From Eubacterium sp. (GTDB lineage Bacteria > Bacillota > Clostridia > Lachnospirales > Lachnospiraceae): 62,445 nt of DNA. The stretch lies in contig JAFXZW010000097.1 of the NCBI GenBank assembly GCA_017541035.1, positions 1 through 62,445 of the forward strand. The letters run 5' to 3'. The stretch's first letter is position 1, and each line of letters opens with the position of its first letter. This document shows, piece after piece, positions 47,944 to 58,293 of this stretch. A model generated the notes under the pieces. It did no database searches. It was not told the origin of the DNA and worked only from the letters and a program-made list of their open reading frames with translations. The position numbers were made by a program, and so were the translations under genes.

Positions 47944-48010
47944 ATGTACTCCTGCAGCTTTCATCCTGAAGCCTTTTTTATTTTAACAGATTTTTCCCGA
48001 AGATAAAAGA

Positions 48011-48039
48011 GCGACGTCTCTCATTTTGAGAAACGCCGC
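48011..48039 (-). terminator. Terminator of the VOC gene
   Basis: Imperfect stem GCGACGTCTCTC (48011-48022) / GAGAAACGCCGC (48028-48039), followed on the minus strand by TCTTTTATC. Confidence 0.55.
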
Positions 48040-48057
48040 CCAAAAAGATCAATCAGT

Positions 48058-48438
48058 TTAGCGATCTTCTTTTCTGATATGTTCCGCAATACTGATGGAA
48101 AAACCGGACGGCGAAACCATCATTGTGGAGATGGAAGATCCGGTATTGGTGATCTTCTCTCCCTGGGCATTCGTGAAGCCCTTTGCCTTCAGCATCTCGT
48201 AAGCTTCGTTGAAATCTCTGACATTCATACGGATGCTGGTCATATCCTGCGGGAGCTTATCCACCTGTGTGATATCCACATGGAATCCATTTGCATCCTT
48301 CATTCTGACACTGGTAATGTCCTCGTCATTGATTCCCTCTTTTTTATGTCGTCTCTCGAAGCCAAGTTCCTCAAAAAGCTTGATGATAGATTCTGAGTCG
48401 TGAGTAATGATCAGCGGGTTAAAAGATGTAATCTGCAT
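48058..48438 (-). CDS. VOC (glyoxalase/bleomycin-resistance) family protein
   Basis: Small protein of 126 residues with the beta-alpha-beta-beta-beta pattern of VOC domains: FNPLIITHDSESIIKLFEELGFERRH at the N-terminus (parts), VDITQVDKLPQDMTSIRMNV in the middle, and SISTMMVSPSGFSISIAEHI (part) at the end. Metal ligands cannot be fixed by eye, so enzyme activity is unknown. The start at 48438 follows GGAGG at good spacing. It is a single gene with its own terminator. Confidence 0.8.
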   Translation of the reverse strand: MQITSFNPLIITHDSESIIKLFEELGFERRHKKEGINDEDITSVRMKDANGFHVDITQVDKLPQDMTSIRMNVRDFNEAYEMLKAKGFTNAQGEKITNTGSSISTMMVSPSGFSISIAEHIRKEDR

Positions 48439-48529
48439 GTTTTTTACCTCCAATAACAAAAACATATTTTTATTTAAACGCGGATCCTCCGCGAATAAAT
48501 CACTTTCTTCGGGTACAGCCCCATTTTTT

Positions 48530-50008
48530 TCAGAATGTAAGAGTATCTAGTTCATCAACCAGTCCGGAAAGCTTGTTCATGTAATGCTCCACCTTTTGAT
48601 GATCCTTTGCGGAAAGAGTCTTCACCTTCCGGATCTTCCGGATCAGGCGCATGTAGCAGAGGAACGAAGCCTTCTTTTTGACATCGTTGATTCTTTCCTC
48701 GTCTTCGGTTCCCAGATAGCGTATCAGGAAACAGTCAAAGAACTTCTGTGCCGTCTCGTAGGAAAAGCCCATAAAGTCCTCTACGACTGCCGGATCATCC
48801 TCTCCCAGAATCACATAGAAATACATGAGATCACTGAGCTCCGATATGGGATATCCTCTGGATATCCGGTCCATATCGATCAGGAGAGGCTCACCGTTCT
48901 GCAGGAACACATTTCCCGAATGGAAATCACCATGAACCAGATTGTCGCATTCCGGAATCGTCTCAACCAGATTCATACAGCGTTCTGCAAGTTCCTCATA
49001 TTCACCGGCAAAGCAGTCGTTCACCCGCGCCCGAAGAGTCTCCTTCATGTCCGGGAATTCATCCTCCGGTGTAACAGTCAGTCCATGGATCAGGAGAGCC
49101 AGATCCGCCATCAGATTAGCGTATTCCCCGACCCGGCCGATGTCCTTTGCGATGCAGGAGGAAACCGTTTCGGAATCCACCAGCTCAAACATGGCACCAT
49201 ACTGTTTTCCGACAGATACGATTCCGAAGGAAATCTCGGTCGGAATTCCCAGAATAAATGCCTTCCGGCACAGGGCGATCTCCCGCTCCACATCACTGTA
49301 GGTATTGTTACGGTTATAGACCTTGATCACTAGCTCATCATCGTAACGATAGACATCTCCCTTCGCTCCGCGTCCGAGCAGCTTGCAGCCCTCGACCGAC
49401 ACTTCCTTGTACTTCTTGAACTTGGCTTTCTCTGAGTCAAATGTTCCCGGCCAGATGGAATTGATATGCTTGATCAGCTCCTTGAACGCGCCTGTCCGGT
49501 TAAGCGACAGCTCTACGATCTCCGCGACACTCCGGTAATACCAGCAATGCTCAGCCGGGTCACTCTCATGCAGCATCGACCACAGCTTCTCGCCATTCTC
49601 ACCGTAGATCCGTGCCAGAGAACGGATGTTGGCCAGCTTATCCGCGAGCCACAGCATCTGTACGCCAACATCATCCGTGTTCTTAAGAACCTTCAGGGAT
49701 TCTTCCTTCCGGCGCTTCCAGGTGGCGCGCCTGTCCTCTCCCGGATAATCATTTTCGGACTCGGAGGCTACCAGAAAGGCAACCCTTTTTCCGAAGCGTT
49801 TTTCGATCTCCGGCATCGTTCCATCCGTATCCTCAACAACATCATGCAGCATACCAGCTGCAATCAGCTCCTGATCATCAGACATGGTGGAAAGGATCTG
49901 CGCCACCTCCATGGGATGCAAAATGTACGGAACATTCTTAAATTTACGAACCTTACCCTGATACATGATCGTCGCGTAAATGATCGCTTCTTCCAACATA
50001 CTCATCAT
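48530..50008 (-). CDS. HD (MESH1/SpoT-like) hydrolase fused to an APH/choline-kinase-like domain
   Basis: 492 residues with two domains. Residues 1-195 match the RelA/SpoT hydrolase fold: H31, HD at 55-56, ED at 59-60 and D123 in LADKLANIRS, as in MESH1-type (p)ppGpp hydrolases; no synthetase domain is seen. Residues 205-470 resemble a phosphotransferase: glycine loop LGRGAKGDVY (211-220), K229 in LVIKVY, catalytic HGD at 359-361 with N366 (LVHGDFHSGNVFL), and metal-binding D378 (LLIDMD). AGGA precedes the ATG. It is the last gene of the amylase-hydrolase-condensation-ACP operon, 127 bases after the ACP gene. The substrates of both domains are inferred only. Confidence 0.85.
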   Translation of the reverse strand: MMSMLEEAIIYATIMYQGKVRKFKNVPYILHPMEVAQILSTMSDDQELIAAGMLHDVVEDTDGTMPEIEKRFGKRVAFLVASESENDYPGEDRRATWKRRKEESLKVLKNTDDVGVQMLWLADKLANIRSLARIYGENGEKLWSMLHESDPAEHCWYYRSVAEIVELSLNRTGAFKELIKHINSIWPGTFDSEKAKFKKYKEVSVEGCKLLGRGAKGDVYRYDDELVIKVYNRNNTYSDVEREIALCRKAFILGIPTEISFGIVSVGKQYGAMFELVDSETVSSCIAKDIGRVGEYANLMADLALLIHGLTVTPEDEFPDMKETLRARVNDCFAGEYEELAERCMNLVETIPECDNLVHGDFHSGNVFLQNGEPLLIDMDRISRGYPISELSDLMYFYVILGEDDPAVVEDFMGFSYETAQKFFDCFLIRYLGTEDEERINDVKKKASFLCYMRLIRKIRKVKTLSAKDHQKVEHYMNKLSGLVDELDTLTF

Positions 50009-50135
50009 GATGTTATTCCTGCCCTTTCCTCTCGTTTTTCGATTCTCACATCCGCGACAACCACAAGCCGCATTTTATCATAAACACTGTCACACTACTG
50101 TCACACTCTTCCCGGTCATGAGAATGGCATCCGCC

Positions 50136-50369
50136 TTAGTTCTCTTTCTGCTTTTTCCTGATATACTTCATGATATCATCTACAGTGGTAATACCCGTAA
50201 GCTCTTCCTCCACGATGGTGATATCAAATACATCCTCGACCTCTCCCATCATGCTCATCAGGGCAAAGGACGTAAGTCCCAAATCCTCACCAAGCCGGGA
50301 ATCCTTCTTGATCTCGCTGGGATCAATGTCCACATATTTTACCAGTATCTCTTTTAATTTTGCCAACAT
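50136..50369 (-). CDS. Acyl or peptidyl carrier protein
   Basis: 77-residue carrier protein, all helical. The phosphopantetheine site is S34 in GEDLGLTSFALMSMM, where LTSF replaces the usual LDSL. Helix 3 reads VEDVFDITIVEEEL. The acidic surface and length match stand-alone carrier proteins of NRPS-like or fatty-acyl systems. GGAGG lies upstream. It sits between the condensation-domain gene (64 bases upstream) and the HD-kinase gene. No fatty-acid synthesis gene is adjacent, so a specialised role is likely. Confidence 0.88.
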   Translation of the reverse strand: MLAKLKEILVKYVDIDPSEIKKDSRLGEDLGLTSFALMSMMGEVEDVFDITIVEEELTGITTVDDIMKYIRKKQKEN

Positions 50370-50433
50370 ACTTTCTTCCTCCGAATATTCTTGAAACAGG
50401 GGCCCGGGCCTCAGTCAGGGATGTACTGCTATG

Positions 50434-51849
50434 CTACATCCAGTCAAGGATTTCTCCGATGGTACGGTTCGGATCCTCAATACCATAGAAGAGCGCCCTG
50501 CAAAGATAATAATAGAATTTCTCAAGCTCATCCTCAGACACTTCGTTCTTCTGATATTCGAAGTGGAATGATATTCCATTGTCCGTAGGCCTGTGCATTA
50601 CGGTAACATATACATGCTGCATGGCAACACCGTTTGTATACCACTGGCTCTTATATTTCATATCGGGAATATTATGTCCCTTAAGTCCTGCCGCGGAGAG
50701 CGGCTGGTAGGTGAGTGTCGTGCAATCATAGGATGCTCCCTGCGGGACTCCGTAATGAGCTCCGACCTCACCCATATACCGGATCGGATCATAATTGGCA
50801 TGGCGCAGCAGTTCATTTTCCTTAGCCTGAACGATCTTTAATGCTTCCATAAAGGTCGTTTCGGGTTCGATTACGGTACGCAGCGGCCAGAAATGGATCC
50901 TTGTTCCGCCGGACTGGGATTCAAGCAAAGTACCTCTTCTTGCAACGGCATTCTTCACGCTGATATCCTTCTCCCCGCCGGAGAACTTGGAGAATACCGT
51001 CCGGAGTCCGAGGAGAAGAAGGACTGCCACAGGAACCTTATTCTGCTTACTGAATTCAATGAGACGTTGTGTCGGTTCATCCTCGAGATCATAAACCTTA
51101 ATATCCGCCTCGATATTTCCTGTCGGATAGCAGGCCCTGAGATCGGGATTCTTCATGGCCTCACGCAGCTCCAGCAGACGGTTTCGCGAGCTGAAGGGAG
51201 TGTAGATCGGCTCATCTGCTTCCAGCTGTTTATACCAGTATTCCTGATCTCTCTTCATAGCCGGGCTGTCCTGCTCATAAGCAAGGTCTATCTTCAGCTG
51301 CTGCAGATAGCTCTTGGGAGGCTTCGGTGCTTCCACATTCTCGAAGCTCTTCGCGCAGTACAGCTGAAGAACATAGCTGTAAAAGGCTATGATGGCTGTA
51401 GAGTCCATGGTCATATGATGAACCTTCATATAGAGTCCCTCATAATTGCCCGGCAGACGTATCAGAACGATTTCGTTCATGGGTCCGCCGTCCATGTGAA
51501 AAGGAATGCGGCTCCAGCGCCTCATCTCCTCATGAGCATCCTCTTCCTGCCAGCCGGAGAAGTCCACCAGCTTTATCTCACGATCCTCATGGGGGATAAG
51601 ATACTGCACGGGATTACCATCCTCATCCATGTTGATGCGAAGACGCATTGACTCAAACTTCTCATATCCGTCATAGATACATTCCCTTAAAACATCAAAA
51701 TTCGTCTGTCCGTATTCAATGTAAAACCCAGTCGCAATATTCAGCAATTCTTCCCTTTTGCAGGCCATAACCGTGTAAAAATGAATCCTCTGCGCCGCCG
51801 TCAAAGGATAGGTCTGCATAACCGCACCGTTAAAACTGATTTCCTTCAT
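50434..51849 (-). CDS. Free-standing condensation-domain protein
   Basis: 471 residues in one condensation (C) domain, as in NRPS systems. The active-site HHxxxD is H144-H145-x3-D149 (MKVHHMTMDSTA). Other marks are TYPLTAAQRIHFYTVMAC at the N-terminus and VPVAVLLLLGLRTVFSKFSGG in the second half. No adenylation, thioesterase or carrier domain is attached. Such proteins join an acyl group from a carrier to an amine or alcohol. The start at 51849 follows AGGAG at 5 bases. It lies between the alpha/beta hydrolase (31 bases upstream) and the carrier-protein gene, its likely partner. Confidence 0.88.
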   Translation of the reverse strand: MKEISFNGAVMQTYPLTAAQRIHFYTVMACKREELLNIATGFYIEYGQTNFDVLRECIYDGYEKFESMRLRINMDEDGNPVQYLIPHEDREIKLVDFSGWQEEDAHEEMRRWSRIPFHMDGGPMNEIVLIRLPGNYEGLYMKVHHMTMDSTAIIAFYSYVLQLYCAKSFENVEAPKPPKSYLQQLKIDLAYEQDSPAMKRDQEYWYKQLEADEPIYTPFSSRNRLLELREAMKNPDLRACYPTGNIEADIKVYDLEDEPTQRLIEFSKQNKVPVAVLLLLGLRTVFSKFSGGEKDISVKNAVARRGTLLESQSGGTRIHFWPLRTVIEPETTFMEALKIVQAKENELLRHANYDPIRYMGEVGAHYGVPQGASYDCTTLTYQPLSAAGLKGHNIPDMKYKSQWYTNGVAMQHVYVTVMHRPTDNGISFHFEYQKNEVSEDELEKFYYYLCRALFYGIEDPNRTIGEILDWM

Positions 51850-51880
51850 ACACACTCCTTTCCACTTATGGTTAGTCCGC

Positions 51881-52882
51881 TTATATATCTTTGAGGAACT
51901 CCTTCTCCGTCTCCTCATAGAGCTCTGTATTTTCAAAAATGCTGGATCCGTGTCCTGCATTTTCAACCATTAACAGCTGTTTACGGGATTTGCAGGCTTC
52001 ATAATTCTGCTCGGACATGATCGTCGGAACGAATTTGTCTTCCTTACCGTGTACAAAAAGGACGGGAACCTTGTTGTCCTTCAGAGCCTCCTGCGTAGAA
52101 TATTCATCAAAACGGTAGCCGACAACTTTTTTGGAATACATGCCGTTCAGATTGATGATGGGCGATGTGATCGGGATGTGGTAGTTCTTCTTCATCACAT
52201 GGGAGAATATCTCCGCAGGAGAAGTAAAGGCGCAGTCCGCGATCACGGCGCTGACGCTGTTCTGGACACTTTCCAAGCCCAGAGCCATCAGGACGGTGGT
52301 GCCCCCCATGGATGTTCCGTGCAGGACGATCTTAATGTCTCCGCCAAAACGTTCATGCGCATACTCGATCCATTTCTCCGTATCAAAACGGTCAAGGATT
52401 CCGAAGCCTACATATTCGCCTTCGCTTTCTCCGTGCGCGCGAAGGTCGAGAAGCAGGACCTCATACCCTTCCCGATGGAAGAAGTATGCATGGGTGGAAT
52501 TATCCATTGCCTTGCTCGTATACCCGTGATGCAGGATAACCAGCTTCTTCGAGGGCTTTTCCGCAGGGATATAAACCGCATGAAGCTTGATCCCGTCTCT
52601 GGCCGTAATGAAGATATCCTCCTTGGATACCCCTTCCGCCCAGACTCCTATGTATTCCATTTTCTTTGCGTACTCTGCCATCTTCTCGGTATCGGCAAAT
52701 TCCGCTACGATCGACTCATCCACTCCGTTCGGACGGGGAAGTGTCTTTTTAAAAAGGATAGCAGACGCTATGCCGGTAATACCCGCAGCGACCCCCGCAC
52801 CCGCAAGACCTCCGACCACGACCTTTCCAAATGTGTTACCATCATCTTTGCCCAACGTCTCTTCCTCCTCTTTTTTATCCAT
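51881..52882 (-). CDS. Membrane-anchored alpha/beta hydrolase
   Basis: 333 residues. After a short charged start, a glycine/alanine-rich hydrophobic stretch (about 20-44) may anchor the protein. The hydrolase fold has the oxyanion loop LVILHHGYTS (near 115), the nucleophile in HGTSMGGTT (near 193-201, serine of GxSxG), an acidic residue after VPVLFVHGKEDKF and histidine in VENAGHGSSIF. It resembles BAAT/DUF-type peptidases and lipases. GGAGC lies upstream. It is 13 bases after the amylase gene. It might release or process the product of the condensation system. Confidence 0.85.
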   Translation of the reverse strand: MDKKEEEETLGKDDGNTFGKVVVGGLAGAGVAAGITGIASAILFKKTLPRPNGVDESIVAEFADTEKMAEYAKKMEYIGVWAEGVSKEDIFITARDGIKLHAVYIPAEKPSKKLVILHHGYTSKAMDNSTHAYFFHREGYEVLLLDLRAHGESEGEYVGFGILDRFDTEKWIEYAHERFGGDIKIVLHGTSMGGTTVLMALGLESVQNSVSAVIADCAFTSPAEIFSHVMKKNYHIPITSPIINLNGMYSKKVVGYRFDEYSTQEALKDNKVPVLFVHGKEDKFVPTIMSEQNYEACKSRKQLLMVENAGHGSSIFENTELYEETEKEFLKDI

Positions 52883-52895
52883 TTGTTCCTGCTCC

Positions 52896-54641
52896 TTATC
52901 TGAAACTATTAGCCCAGTTCACAAGTGAATTATGCCAGATATTATCCTCAACATCCTTACGCATCTGATCCGTCACGGGTCCGTTTTTAGCCATCTTTGC
53001 AAGTATCACTGCCTGAAGCTGCTCCACAGTCATCTCCTCATAGGGGATATCCGGAACAGGCACTGTCTCCTTCTGTGCTTTCTCCTGTTTCGTTCGCTCC
53101 TGCTTTTTCTTCTCGTCAGGCTTCTGTCCTGATTTCGTTGCTTCAGCAGTCTTTGGGTCCGGTGCCTTTGCTCCGGCGGACTTCTGTCCCGGTGCCTTTG
53201 CTTCGGCGGACTTCTGCTCCGGTTTCTTCTCTGAAGCTTTCTGTTCTTCCTTTGCATCCGGCCCGGCGGTCTTTATCTCTGTTACGGAAAGCTTGCTGCT
53301 CTTCGCCTTCCCGCCCTCAGCCGGTGCATAGATCTCCCCGTTATTGGGCTGTATGCGTATCTGAAGTCTTCCTCCTGAAGCCGTCAGTTTTTCACCATAT
53401 AAAAGACCGATGTACTCACCGTCTGCAGCCGGAACATTTATCTCTGCCGCATTGTCATCATTATTCACCGCTACGACCAGCCTTCCGCGGCCATAGGCAA
53501 ACTGACGGTTGGTCAGGCAAAGCTCCCTGTAATCCTCGCTTGTCAGATCCTGCCGGTACTCCTTATGGATTCTGCCCAGCGCCGTGATCAGCTTCGTACA
53601 GGGATTTTTTTCATAATCCTTTGCATGCTCCTTCAGGTCAATGTACGGACGAAGGGAATCATCCGAAAACTGTTCCTTTCTGCCTTCGATCCCGAACTCA
53701 CTTCCGTAATAGATTGAAGGGATTCCGGGGAGCGTGAACAGCATGATATGCACGGGCGTGAAATGTGCCTTATTCTTCAGCTTCGTAATGATCCGCTCCA
53801 CATCATGATTATCCACGAAATTGTAAAGCCTGATGGCTCTGGAGATCATGCCGTTGGTGTAGCGTATCGTGTGAGCGATCTCAAAGAAATTGTGATCGTT
53901 CATGCCGCTGTATAACCCTTTGTGAAGAGTATAGTTCGTCACACTGTGCAGGGTATTCGCATTCGCCCATCGGGAATAATCTCCGTGGATCACCTCGCCC
54001 ATAAGCCAGAAATCAGGTTTCACGGAATCTGCTGTCCGCCGCAGGTCCTTCATGAACTCGAAATCCAGTACATCCGCCGCATCAAGCCGCAGACCATCTA
54101 TATCAAATTCCTTTACCCAGAAACGGATCACATCGCAGATATAATCCTTGACTGCCGGATTCCTCTGATTCAGCTTGACCAGAAGATTGTAGCCTCCCCA
54201 GTTTTCGTAGGAAAAGCCGTCGTTATATTCATTATTTCCGTAGAAATTCACATTACAGTACCAGTCTCTGTATGCGGATCCTTCCCTTTTTTCCCGGATA
54301 TCCTTAAATGCGAAGAAGTCACGTCCCGTATGATTGAAAACTCCATCCAGAATAACCCTGATCCCCGCATCGTGACATTTCTTCACGAAATTCGTCAGAT
54401 CCTCATTCGTTCCCAGTCTTGAGTCCAGCTTCTTATAATCCGTAGTTTCATAACCATGCCCTACCGATTCAAAAAGAGGACCGATATAAAGCGCGTTCAC
54501 TCCGATCTTTTTTAAATGATCGATCCATGGAACCAAAGTGTTCAACCTGTGTACCGGTTCGCCGTAGTCGTTCTGCTTCGGTGCCCCGGTAAGTCCCAAC
54601 GGATAAATGTGATAGAACACTGCCTCATCATACCATGCCAT
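52896..54641 (-). CDS. GH13 alpha-amylase-family glycoside hydrolase with disordered C-terminus
   Basis: 581 residues, no signal peptide, so probably cytoplasmic. The (beta/alpha)8 barrel is complete: VILDGVFNHTG near 96-106, nucleophile D187 in GLRLDAAD, acid/base E216 in WLMGEVIHGD, and third acid D280 in FVDNHDVERI. A beta-sandwich domain follows at about 390-440. From about 450 the chain is K/E/A/P/Q-rich (QKSAEAKAPGQKSAGAKAPD), then ends in a short folded-looking segment YEEMTVEQLQAVILAKMAK. It is the first gene of the condensation-domain operon. Its role is likely maltodextrin or glycogen hydrolysis. Confidence 0.92.
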   Translation of the reverse strand: MAWYDEAVFYHIYPLGLTGAPKQNDYGEPVHRLNTLVPWIDHLKKIGVNALYIGPLFESVGHGYETTDYKKLDSRLGTNEDLTNFVKKCHDAGIRVILDGVFNHTGRDFFAFKDIREKREGSAYRDWYCNVNFYGNNEYNDGFSYENWGGYNLLVKLNQRNPAVKDYICDVIRFWVKEFDIDGLRLDAADVLDFEFMKDLRRTADSVKPDFWLMGEVIHGDYSRWANANTLHSVTNYTLHKGLYSGMNDHNFFEIAHTIRYTNGMISRAIRLYNFVDNHDVERIITKLKNKAHFTPVHIMLFTLPGIPSIYYGSEFGIEGRKEQFSDDSLRPYIDLKEHAKDYEKNPCTKLITALGRIHKEYRQDLTSEDYRELCLTNRQFAYGRGRLVVAVNNDDNAAEINVPAADGEYIGLLYGEKLTASGGRLQIRIQPNNGEIYAPAEGGKAKSSKLSVTEIKTAGPDAKEEQKASEKKPEQKSAEAKAPGQKSAGAKAPDPKTAEATKSGQKPDEKKKQERTKQEKAQKETVPVPDIPYEEMTVEQLQAVILAKMAKNGPVTDQMRKDVEDNIWHNSLVNWANSFR

Positions 54642-54721: not shown

Positions 54722-54750
54722 ATTATACATGAAAACCACCTTTTCCTCAA
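54722..54750 (-). promoter_or_regulatory. Promoter of the amylase-condensation operon
   Basis: On the minus strand TTGAGG (54745-54750), a 17-base spacer and consensus TATAAT (54722-54727), about 80 bases upstream of the amylase start. No other clear promoter is seen before the later genes of the operon. Confidence 0.6.
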
Positions 54751-54931: not shown

Positions 54932-55132
54932 TCAGTTCAGACGCTCTCTTACATTCATTTTACTCCTTGGACAGCCGCTGCAGGAACTGCAGCAGCCTCC
55001 GCAGCTTTTGCAGCTTCCTCCGCAGATCACCGACTTTCCGGCCTTCTTATCGCGGATCATACTGCAAATGATCAGCGCCACAACCACAAGGAGGACGATG
55101 AGTACAAGTATCGTTCCGACTATTTCATTCAT
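54932..55132 (-). CDS. FeoB-associated Cys-rich membrane protein
   Basis: 66-residue protein with an N-terminal transmembrane helix (about 4-27) and a cytoplasmic tail with cysteine motifs (CGGSCKSCGGCCSSCSGC). It matches small cysteine-rich proteins found after feoB in many Firmicutes. They are thought to assist ferrous iron transport, perhaps by binding iron at the inner side. GGAGG lies 6-7 bases before the ATG. It lies 67 bases downstream of feoB. Confidence 0.9.
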   Translation of the reverse strand: MNEIVGTILVLIVLLVVVALIICSMIRDKKAGKSVICGGSCKSCGGCCSSCSGCPRSKMNVRERLN

Positions 55133-55199
55133 ATCCGCATCCTCCTATCTCCCGATGATAGTTTCCTTCATCCGGGCAGCGACCGGCATTCCTGTCCTG

Positions 55200-57614
55200 T
55201 TATGCACTCTTTTTCATTTTGATCTCCAGCTTCTGGCTCTCCTTATACGGCCGGAAGAGCAGATATGCGAAGCCGATCAGCAACAGGAATGCAACGATCA
55301 CCCATGCGCTGAAGGTTCCGGTGAACAGCATACCGATCTGATATACACAGAGTGCGACTACATATGCGAAAGCACACTGGTAACCGATCGCAAACCAGGT
55401 CCACTTTGCGGAGTTCATTTCCCTCTTGATCGCACCGATGGCTGCAAAGCAGGGTGCGCACAGCAGGTTAAACAGCAGGAAGGAATATCCTGCCAGGCGC
55501 GTCAGTCCCTCGAAATCCAGGACTCCGAAGACGCCGACAACCTCTTCCTTTGCCACAAGACCCATGACGGTTGCCACCGTCGCACGGATATTGTCGAAGC
55601 CGAGGGGTGCAAAGATCCATGAAATACCGCTTCCGATCTTGCCCAGAATACTGTCTTCCAGGGCAACATCCGGATTGAAGCCAAAGGCTCCGTCCACCCA
55701 GCCAAAGGACTTGCCAGCCCAGATCAGGATGGAAGAAAGCAGGATGATGGTTCCGGCCTTCTTGATGAAGGACCAGCCGCGCTCCCACATGGAACGAAGT
55801 ACAGCCCCCACCTTCGGTGCATGGTACGCCGGCAGCTCCATAACGAAGGGTGCCGGGTCTCCTGCAAATATTTTCGTCTTCTTCAGGATGATACCGGAAA
55901 GAACGATAGCCGCAACTCCGATGAAATAAGCACTCCACGCAACCCATGCGGAGCCATGGAACAGAGCCGCAGCGATCAGGGAAATGATGGGCAGCTTTGC
56001 CCCGCAGGGGATAAATGTTGTTGTCATGATCGTCATACGACGGTCTCTTTCATTTTCAATGGTACGGCTTGCCATGATACCCGGCACGCCGCAGCCGGTT
56101 CCGATCAGTACCGGAATGAAGGACTTACCCGATAGCCCGAACTTCCGGAAGATACGGTCCATGATAAATGCCACGCGGGCCATGTAGCCACACTCCTCCA
56201 GAATTGCAAGGAAGATAAAGAGTACCAGCATCTGCGGAACAAATCCGAGTACTGCACCCACACCGGCGATGATTCCGTCCAGGATGAGACTCTTCAGCCA
56301 TTCCGCGCAATTCATGGCATCCAGGCCTTTCTCTGCCAGGGCCGGAATACTCGGAACCCAGGTTCCGTATTCGGAGGGATCCGGCGAATCGAATTCACCC
56401 TCTTCGTTCAACGCCCCGGATGCTTCCAGCACCTCGTCAATGGCGTAACCCTTTTCGATCAGATCATCCGCGTAGGTCCCGTAAGCCTCCGTAAAGCCAT
56501 CCAGATCCCCGTCTTCAAAAGCCCCCTTCAGGTCTTCGGCACCGATGACATTTTTATCTTCCGCTGCCTGATCGATCACTGCTTTTACTTCATCAACAAA
56601 AACATGCTCTTCCGCCCACTTCTCGGTGTCTGCATCAAAATCTCCACTCATTCCGAAGAGGTGGAAGCCATCACCGAAAAGGTTGTCATTGGTCCAGTCT
56701 GTAGCCCACCCGCCTATCGTGGAGATCGACACATAATATACGATGAACATGATCACCGCAAAGATCGGAAGCGCCAGCCAACGGTTGGTTACGATCCTGT
56801 CGATCTTATCGGAAGTATTCATTTTGGTTCCGGTATGTTTCTTTTTCAGCACACCGGAAATGATGGATGAAATGTAGTTATACCGCTCATTTGTGATGAT
56901 GCTTTCCGTGTCATCGTCGAAGGCCTTTTCCATTTCCGCTATCTCTGCGGAAACATCCGGAAGTCCTTCCGCCATTTCAGCGACCTTATCATCCCGCTCC
57001 AGAAGCTTGATGGCGAAGAAGCGGCGTTCTTCTGCTTTGATGCCTGAAGGAAGCTTCTCCTCTACCCGCTGAATATAGTCCTCAACCTCTTTGGAGAAGG
57101 AGTGTTTTCTTTCCGCGACCCTGCCTGCTTTGGCAAGTTCAATGGCCTTTTCCGTAACCTGATCGATACCTGTGCCCTTCATGGCGGAGATCTCAAGCAC
57201 CGGAACCCCCAGCTTGTCGGAGAGGGCCTTCGTATTGATCTTGTCTCCGTTCTTCTCCACCAGATCCATCATATTGACAGCGATCACTACCGGGATACCC
57301 AGCTCCAGCACCTGCGTTGTCAGGTACAGATTTCGCTCAAGGTTGGTGCCGTCAACGATATTGATGATGGCGTCCGGCCGCTGCCCGATCAGATAATTTC
57401 TCGCCACCACTTCTTCCAGCGTATAGGGTGACAGCGAATAAATACCGGGAAGATCCTCGATTCGGACCTCCTTATTCCCTTTCAGCTTTCCTTCCTTCTT
57501 CTCGACAGTAACGCCGGGCCAGTTTCCTACATACTGGTTGGCTCCTGTCAGCGCATTGAATAATGTTGTCTTCCCGCAGTTCGGATTTCCTGCGAGGGCG
57601 ATACGTATGCTCAT
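55200..57614 (-). CDS. feoB: Ferrous iron transporter FeoB
   Basis: 804-residue inner-membrane protein. The N-terminal G domain has G1 GNPNCGKTT (9-17), G3 DLPG (54-57) and G4 NMMD (114-117), followed by the GDI-type helical region (to about 265). The transmembrane part starts near 278. Between the first membrane segment and KSLILDGIIAGVGAVLGFVP lies an acidic segment of about 110 residues (about 315-430), larger than in typical FeoB. Gate motifs GCGVPGIMASR and PCGAKLPI are intact. It is preceded by two feoA genes, and an operator-like box lies in the gap. Confidence 0.95.
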   Translation of the reverse strand: MSIRIALAGNPNCGKTTLFNALTGANQYVGNWPGVTVEKKEGKLKGNKEVRIEDLPGIYSLSPYTLEEVVARNYLIGQRPDAIINIVDGTNLERNLYLTTQVLELGIPVVIAVNMMDLVEKNGDKINTKALSDKLGVPVLEISAMKGTGIDQVTEKAIELAKAGRVAERKHSFSKEVEDYIQRVEEKLPSGIKAEERRFFAIKLLERDDKVAEMAEGLPDVSAEIAEMEKAFDDDTESIITNERYNYISSIISGVLKKKHTGTKMNTSDKIDRIVTNRWLALPIFAVIMFIVYYVSISTIGGWATDWTNDNLFGDGFHLFGMSGDFDADTEKWAEEHVFVDEVKAVIDQAAEDKNVIGAEDLKGAFEDGDLDGFTEAYGTYADDLIEKGYAIDEVLEASGALNEEGEFDSPDPSEYGTWVPSIPALAEKGLDAMNCAEWLKSLILDGIIAGVGAVLGFVPQMLVLFIFLAILEECGYMARVAFIMDRIFRKFGLSGKSFIPVLIGTGCGVPGIMASRTIENERDRRMTIMTTTFIPCGAKLPIISLIAAALFHGSAWVAWSAYFIGVAAIVLSGIILKKTKIFAGDPAPFVMELPAYHAPKVGAVLRSMWERGWSFIKKAGTIILLSSILIWAGKSFGWVDGAFGFNPDVALEDSILGKIGSGISWIFAPLGFDNIRATVATVMGLVAKEEVVGVFGVLDFEGLTRLAGYSFLLFNLLCAPCFAAIGAIKREMNSAKWTWFAIGYQCAFAYVVALCVYQIGMLFTGTFSAWVIVAFLLLIGFAYLLFRPYKESQKLEIKMKKSA

Positions 57615-57758
57615 CTTTGTCCCTTTCTTTCCTGCTATCCCGAATGGATGATCGGATCCTGTCAGGCATTCAGGATAATATGCCGGTACACTTATTTTAT
57701 GTATAGAATCTTCGGCAACGATTCAAAATGGAAAAAATCGCAGTCGTACAGTACCGGC

Positions 57759-57774
57759 GTTAGTCTTTACTAAC
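57759..57774. promoter_or_regulatory. GTTAG-N6-CTAAC box upstream of feoB
   Basis: Inverted repeat GTTAG-TCTTTA-CTAAC, with the same half-sites and spacing as the two boxes at the feo promoter. It lies in the 176-base gap between the second feoA and feoB, and may control an internal feoB promoter. Confidence 0.6.
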
Positions 57775-57790
57775 CTTCAGTCAAAAAAAA

Positions 57791-58012
57791 TTACTGCACC
57801 TCTATCATTTCCGCATCCGCTTTACGAACCGACAATTCATAGCCTCTCACGGTAATCTCAACGGGATCACCCAGCGGTGCAACCTTCCTCACATAAAGCT
57901 CGACGCCCTTTGTGATCCCCATGTCCATGATCCGGCGTCGGACCGCGCCTTCCCCCTGCAGTTTTACCACAGTGGCCGTCTCGCCGATCTTCACATCTCT
58001 TAGCGTTTTCAA
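57791..58012 (-). CDS. feoA: FeoA-domain protein
   Basis: 73 residues of the SH3-like FeoA fold: LRDVKIGETATVVKLQGEGA, RRRIMDMGITKGVELYVRKV and GDPVEITVRGYELSVRKADAE. FeoA works with FeoB in ferrous iron uptake. The start is a TTG at 58012, supported by AGGAGG at 7 bases. It lies 11 bases downstream of the first feoA, and feoB follows. Confidence 0.93.
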   Translation of the reverse strand: MKTLRDVKIGETATVVKLQGEGAVRRRIMDMGITKGVELYVRKVAPLGDPVEITVRGYELSVRKADAEMIEVQ

Positions 58013-58023
58013 GGTCCTTCCTC

Positions 58024-58233
58024 CTAAATAAAAATCTTTCCTGCCAGTTCTTCACTGACAGCCACCCGGCTTTCCTTTACCTTCACGATCAGGTTCTTCC
58101 CTACCGCACTTACGACACTGACCTGCCCGCCGACATTAAATCCAAGGTCTGTCAGGTGTTTCCTTACTTCCGGATTTCCTCCGATCTTTTTGATGATCTG
58201 AGGCCGTCCCATTTCTGCATAGATCAAAGGCAT
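58024..58233 (-). CDS. feoA: FeoA-domain protein, first copy
   Basis: 69 residues, also an SH3-like FeoA fold: KIGGNPEVRKHLTDLGFNVGGQVSVVSAVG and NLIVKVKESRVAVSEELAGKIF (parts). It is distinct from the second copy. ATG 58233 is chosen with GGAGGAG at 7 bases; a GTG one codon upstream is less likely. It is the first gene of the feo operon, with the promoter and two boxes about 60-110 bases upstream. Confidence 0.9.
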   Translation of the reverse strand: MPLIYAEMGRPQIIKKIGGNPEVRKHLTDLGFNVGGQVSVVSAVGKNLIVKVKESRVAVSEELAGKIFI

Positions 58234-58293
58234 CACGGTACTCCTCCCTTATTTTATTTGGTATAGACACGTTAACAGTTTTGAATAACAAAA

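Follow-up and report, generated by a model that had tools for sequence, protein, structure and literature searches.

The window, which here denotes the whole 62,445-nt contig JAFXZW010000097.1 of assembly GCA_017541035.1 (Eubacterium sp., genome label G000), carries five genes on the minus strand, separated by gaps of 13, 31, 64 and 127 bases, as a preliminary description of the sequence had stated. Read in the direction of these genes, they encode a GH13 amylase-like protein of 581 aa (52896..54641; Pfam alpha-amylase 1.5e-54), an alpha/beta hydrolase of 333 aa with an N-terminal hydrophobic segment (51881..52882; Pfam hydrolase families, best 8.3e-19), a 471 aa condensation (C) protein that stands alone and is of the fatty-acid-amide (FAA) type (50434..51849; Pfam, PDB match and tree), an acyl carrier protein (ACP, also “T”) of 77 aa (50136..50369; Pfam PP-binding 1.6e-9) and a 492 aa fusion of an HD_4 and an APH (phosphotransferase) domain, referred to here as the HD-kinase (48530..50008; Pfam HD_4 2.4e-21, APH 2.3e-11). 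The domains named beforehand were thus recovered with Pfam and NCBIfam, namely the condensation domain with the motif HHMTMDS, the carrier with its serine in DLGLTS, the hydrolase with GTSMG and the HD_4-APH fusion. The best start of the C gene is the ATG at 51849, which lies behind AAGGAG, while the list of open reading frames begins it at the TTG at 51966.

The good promoter that had been placed in front of the five genes corresponds to a promoter-like site 5' of the amylase gene (TTGAGG-17-TATAAT, 54722..54750, minus strand), which has a 10/12 match, but the scan gives no more sites of this kind for the region than for shuffled sequences (11 sites versus 10.4). A second promoter-like site with a 10/12 match (GTGACA-16-TATGAT, 50077..50104, minus strand) lies in the 127-base gap 5' of the HD-kinase gene. 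The possible end of the unit is a terminator-like hairpin of 15 pairs on the minus strand (48009..48041); since this is the nearest strong site of its kind downstream, a sixth gene (48058-48465) may belong to the same unit. This small gene, located 3' of the HD-kinase fusion, gave no Pfam match at 0.001, and its homologs are found in two or three copies less than about 4 kb from the HD-kinase genes of L162, L168 and L169. Just upstream of the amylase gene and on the same strand, FeoB and two small FeoA-like proteins of ferrous iron transport are encoded (54932-58236; gene names judged from sequence).

The C protein matches the Pfam Condensation model with 1.3e-32 and 113.5 bits (cut-off 30.6), and its best match among the PDB sequences is 12KH (E 4.5e-102, aligned over residues 12-469), the sole other PDB match having a value of 7.4e-6. 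According to the parts of PMC13142362 drawn on here, 12KH is OaaC of Coprococcus eutactus, a stand-alone condensation domain that couples an ACP-bound fatty acid to a free amine and gave no product with oleoyl-CoA, and the class motif of stand-alone C proteins is (D/H)HxxxDS. The HHMTMDS of the window C fits this motif, of which the second His and the Asp are invariant in a 12-row alignment. In a larger set of 87 C rows, drawn from the window, L009-L024, 20 genus loci and the 50 loci of the family and class samples described below, 86 have both residues, and the remaining row is without a match to the pattern. The profile scores of the family, at least 273 bits versus at most 122 bits, set it apart from the C domains of NRPS. 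As judged from its sequence, the window C is therefore a member of the stand-alone C family of the Clostridia FAA/CTA cassettes. It groups with a carrier-dependent condensation domain and not with unrelated acyltransferases, which supports the earlier proposal of an acyl-conjugation pathway in which C and carrier act together. An AlphaFold model of the window C has a mean pLDDT of 72, and its fold matches are NRPS condensation domains (starter type, e.g. RzmA) with an identity of only about 12-20%; 12KH is absent among the 50 fold matches listed.

Within the genus, members of the C family occur in 29 of 61 genomes (30 with a match, one of which is an NRPS). Searched with a profile of the 12-row C alignment, the family sample gave matches at ≤1e-20 in 53 of 347 genomes, of which 50 score at least 273 bits and three only at NRPS level, and the class sample in 45 of 392 genomes, 24 of them with at least 278 bits; some genomes are shared between these two samples. 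In the phylum sample, 9 of 398 genomes match at 1e-25 and only the genome of the window itself exceeds 122 bits. The best-scoring family and class matches for which a locus was obtained form a set of 50 (L069-L118), which excludes another six class loci with scores at NRPS level. ACP and an acyl-AMP ligase (A) follow C in 49 of these 50 loci, while the fiftieth (L117) ends with C, and the usual order in the relatives is hydrolase, C, ACP and A. The ligase is an AMP-binding protein nearest to the fatty acyl-CoA ligases, with scores below the cut-offs of the named families.

The genome of the window contains two cassettes, named here type I, with the order hydrolase-C-ACP-A on contig C68, and type II, which is the cassette of the window. 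The two C proteins share 32% identity and the two ACPs 34%. Six type-I loci of the genus are accompanied by a convergent TetR-type regulator, Pfam-checked in two of them. Relatives of the type-II cassette were found at 16 loci, with the order hydrolase-C-ACP-A in metagenome-assembled genomes labelled Lachnospiraceae, Oscillospiraceae, Ruminococcaceae or Clostridia; L009 among them is apparently the same contig as that of G033, and the other genomes (L010-L024) lie outside the 61-genome genus search. The order hydrolase-C-carrier is thus conserved in relatives, a check that the preliminary description had named.

Ser191, Asp282 and His311 of the hydrolase are invariant in ten of ten aligned type-II hydrolases and are predicted to form its catalytic triad. 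The AlphaFold model is of medium confidence (mean pLDDT 71, residues 1-63 unreliable), and a fold search with it returned general esterase/lipase matches. A hydrolase of this family precedes C in at least 33 of the 50 family and class loci, and an SCP2-type lipid-binding gene precedes the hydrolase in at least 18 (L078-L080, L082-L085, L087, L089-L097 and L106), both counts being lower bounds because the upstream stretch covered at most 1.5 kb per locus. Both genes, found next to many cassettes, may serve to supply fatty acids, a role for which they are candidates absent from the cited parts of PMC13142362 and PMC13060934. An SCP2-type gene was also seen near five type-II loci (L016, L017, L019, L022 and L024).

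The FAA cassettes of gut Clostridia were reportedly discovered by Chang et al. in work published in Nature Microbiology in 2021. As far as the available parts of two articles go, the three-gene set is named CTA, tied to acyl amine production and linked to relief of fatty acid toxicity in Blautia (PMC13060934), and the lipid amides of FAA cassettes are described as acting on receptors of the host and as possibly shielding the bacterium against free fatty acids (PMC13060934; PMC13142362). The existence of these cassettes answers the earlier statement that no named system has such a set, and a pathway outside the named systems was rejected, as the C protein belongs to a described family. The window locus resembles the FAA/CTA cassettes in its stand-alone C followed by an ACP, the genes lying directly side by side (gap 64), in the membership of its C in the OaaC family and in the (D/H)HxxxDS motif. 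It differs from them in having no ligase gene in the same operon, which belongs to the definition used in the cited parts of PMC13060934, in the second cassette of the same genome, in the hydrolase before C and in the amylase nearby. The cluster of OaaC, unlike the window locus, encodes its own ligase, OaaA, and OaaC takes aminovaleric acid and, in vitro, also GABA. Canonical NRPS are built of C-A-carrier modules, whereas the window C lies outside any module, its neighbours being separate ORFs with no A among them. The words or word stems “hydrolase”, “amylase”, “paralog” and “duplicat” are absent from the main texts of PMC13142362 and PMC13060934. Among the papers listed, which include no subscription papers, none concerns a ligase-less FAA cassette by its title and the opening of its abstract, so this variant is provisionally regarded as new to the literature. 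A survey that requires C and A together, as one definition in the cited parts of PMC13060934 does, would miss ligase-less cassettes, so the count of FAA cassettes in Clostridia may be too low.

The lack of an adenylation enzyme, already noted in the preliminary description, holds at the locus. The gap of the window in which relatives carry the acyl-AMP ligase gene (50009..50135, minus strand) contains no ligase remnant, nor do three sibling loci (best E 0.09). A search for the lost gene in the window genome found as its best match the type-I A on another contig. To trace the loss, a C tree was constructed with 51 rows, comprising 25 of the 50 family and class loci but neither OaaC nor NRPS C domains; rows of more than 500 residues were trimmed to the last 470, and the long branch L118 may be misplaced. 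The type-II C of the window belongs to a clade of 18 rows (support 100/100), 14 of which have A and four of which lack it, namely the window (G000), G033, G006 and G023, all from the genus of the window. In these four genomes, the ACP gene has no A behind it, and a type-II A was not found elsewhere either. Each of them also has a type-I C. G000 and G006 hold an intact type-I A. In G033 this gene is cut off by the contig end, and its remainder may be a C-terminal piece seen on a different contig. In G023, where the contig stops in the type-I C, a type-I A was not found; G023 and G033 are 80% and 79% complete. Missing sequence is not the reason for the absent type-II A in G006, since this genome consists of a single contig. 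All 15 genomes reached through L010-L024 have A together with a single C of the family, in 14 of them directly after the ACP and in L018 at the start of another contig. This distribution indicates that the missing A is a derived loss and not the usual state of these cassettes.

Within the clade, L022, which has A, is sister to the window and G033 with a support of 100/99, while G006 and G023 stand outside a 14-row group (98/93); the fork of the window and G033 is weaker (93/75). As the rows without A belong to two clades, parsimony suggests that A was probably lost twice, although there may instead have been one loss followed by a later regain. In an A tree, the A of L022 branches without resolution at the base of the type-II A group, a position that neither speaks against vertical inheritance nor establishes it. 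A comparison of the ACPs at 33 diagnostic sites gave only a weak signal for convergence of the A-less ACPs on type-I ACPs, as the counts overlap: those of cassettes without A are type-I-like at 4 to 7 sites and those with A at 0 to 12, the value of 12 belonging to L023, which was excluded from the type-II consensus (L050 was dropped as a copy of L009). Sites 43, 46 and 49 carry the type-I residue in the window and in G033 and another residue in L022.

The window cassette, without its own A in a genome in which another cassette has a ligase, probably borrows that ligase; the association of A loss with a second cassette comprises about two events in one genus. We favour, as somewhat more likely than not, that the window locus is a second, ligase-less FAA cassette that is charged by the C68 ligase and makes an N-acyl amide. 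In this mechanism, the C68 ligase would activate a fatty acid as acyl-AMP and load the phosphopantetheine of the window ACP as well as that of its own ACP, and the window C would pass the acyl group to a free small amine. If it is C that chooses the amine, two different products would be expected from two C proteins supplied by a single ligase. For the membrane-anchored hydrolase, a guess from its fold is that it releases fatty acids from their esters or cleans carriers that were loaded wrongly. The likely benefit to the cell would be that toxic free fatty acids are removed, an effect reported for Blautia. The wider proposal, in which one acyl-AMP ligase serves two ACP/C pairs and the second pair, whose ligase was shed at least twice, makes a different amide, is advanced more tentatively, as plausible rather than probable. 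If it is true, these systems would diversify through the C protein rather than through the ligase. The ligase-less cassette also represents a natural test of the specificity of a ligase for its carrier.

Charging by another acyl-AMP ligase, such as that on contig C114, or by acyl transfer from fatty acid synthesis, is unlikely but carries some weight; the cassette would then acylate its acceptor with other acyl chains. The genome contains other stand-alone ligases, among them the C114 protein of 575 aa, whose score against the A profile is 411 bits. Counterparts of it occur in G033 and G006, and it is 47% identical to type-II A, over a piece of about 218 residues, compared with 39% over 472 for the type-I ligase. 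The window ACP, in addition, matches fatty-acid ACP models, with scores below their cut-offs. Counterparts of C114 are, however, also present in G041 and G005, both without a type-II C, so C114 is not tied to the loss of A, and by total score it is the type-I ligase that resembles the lost gene most closely in G000, G006 and G033. In the window genome, no PF01648 (phosphopantetheinyl transferase) match was obtained despite many carrier-using enzymes; the same search was positive in 10 of 14 control genomes.

It is improbable that the five genes form one dedicated pathway whose C protein acylates a sugar or phosphorylated acceptor that the amylase, hydrolase and HD-kinase provide or modify. The short gaps on one strand speak for such a pathway, as does the amylase, which is a recurrent neighbour of type-II cassettes at 13 loci, namely 10 of the 15 type-II loci outside the genus, the window, G006 and G023 in the flanks examined (those of L012, L018 and L023 are cut, which limits the count). 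It is placed either upstream, in the same or in divergent orientation, or downstream, and in G033 it lies on a short contig beside a different neighbour. Against this stand L020 and L021, with no amylase within about 10 kb on either side, and five of the nine genus genomes (of 61) with a long amylase (>500 bits), which have no type-II C; neither amylase nor HD-kinase occurs within ≤1.5 kb on either side of the 50 family and class loci. The amylase is thus a neighbour and not a core part. The HD-kinase adjoins a cassette in G041 (L056) and L016, and in L020 and L021 it is found some 5 kb past A. However, among the 13 full-length copies in the 61 genus genomes (there is also one partial copy), only those of the window and G041 are beside a C cassette; the surrounding stretches examined of the other 11 hold no C, ACP or A, and one of them shows a weak (29-bit) hydrolase match. 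The HD-kinase had been counted as part of the set; as a core part it was rejected on these grounds, and it is probably a loosely linked, separate unit unrelated to the cassette. Nothing found points to the storage-linked product that had also been suggested.

That the cassette is a decaying remnant after ligase loss, as the missing A and the absence of another ligase of its type among those found in the genome might suggest, is very improbable and was rejected, since C and ACP appear from their dN/dS values (NG86) to be still under strong purifying selection in both A-less pairs (window-G033: C 0.037, ACP 0.066; G006-G023: C 0.123, ACP 0.139; rough values, as dS is above 1), and all four A-less cassettes keep open frames and the second His and Asp of the motif.

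The amylase of the window has a low-complexity linker followed by a conserved C-terminal tail. This tail of about 50 residues (window 52896-53050) resembles a docking segment and occurs as well in amylases from genomes that lack a type-II C. In one of the five genus genomes with a long amylase but no type-II C (G046), a piece of the hydrolase family lies divergent from the amylase at the contig end. At L056 (G041 contig C45, 2-3699), a third C paralog is accompanied by ACP and A and immediately adjoins an HD-kinase gene 68% identical to that of the window, with no hydrolase in between.
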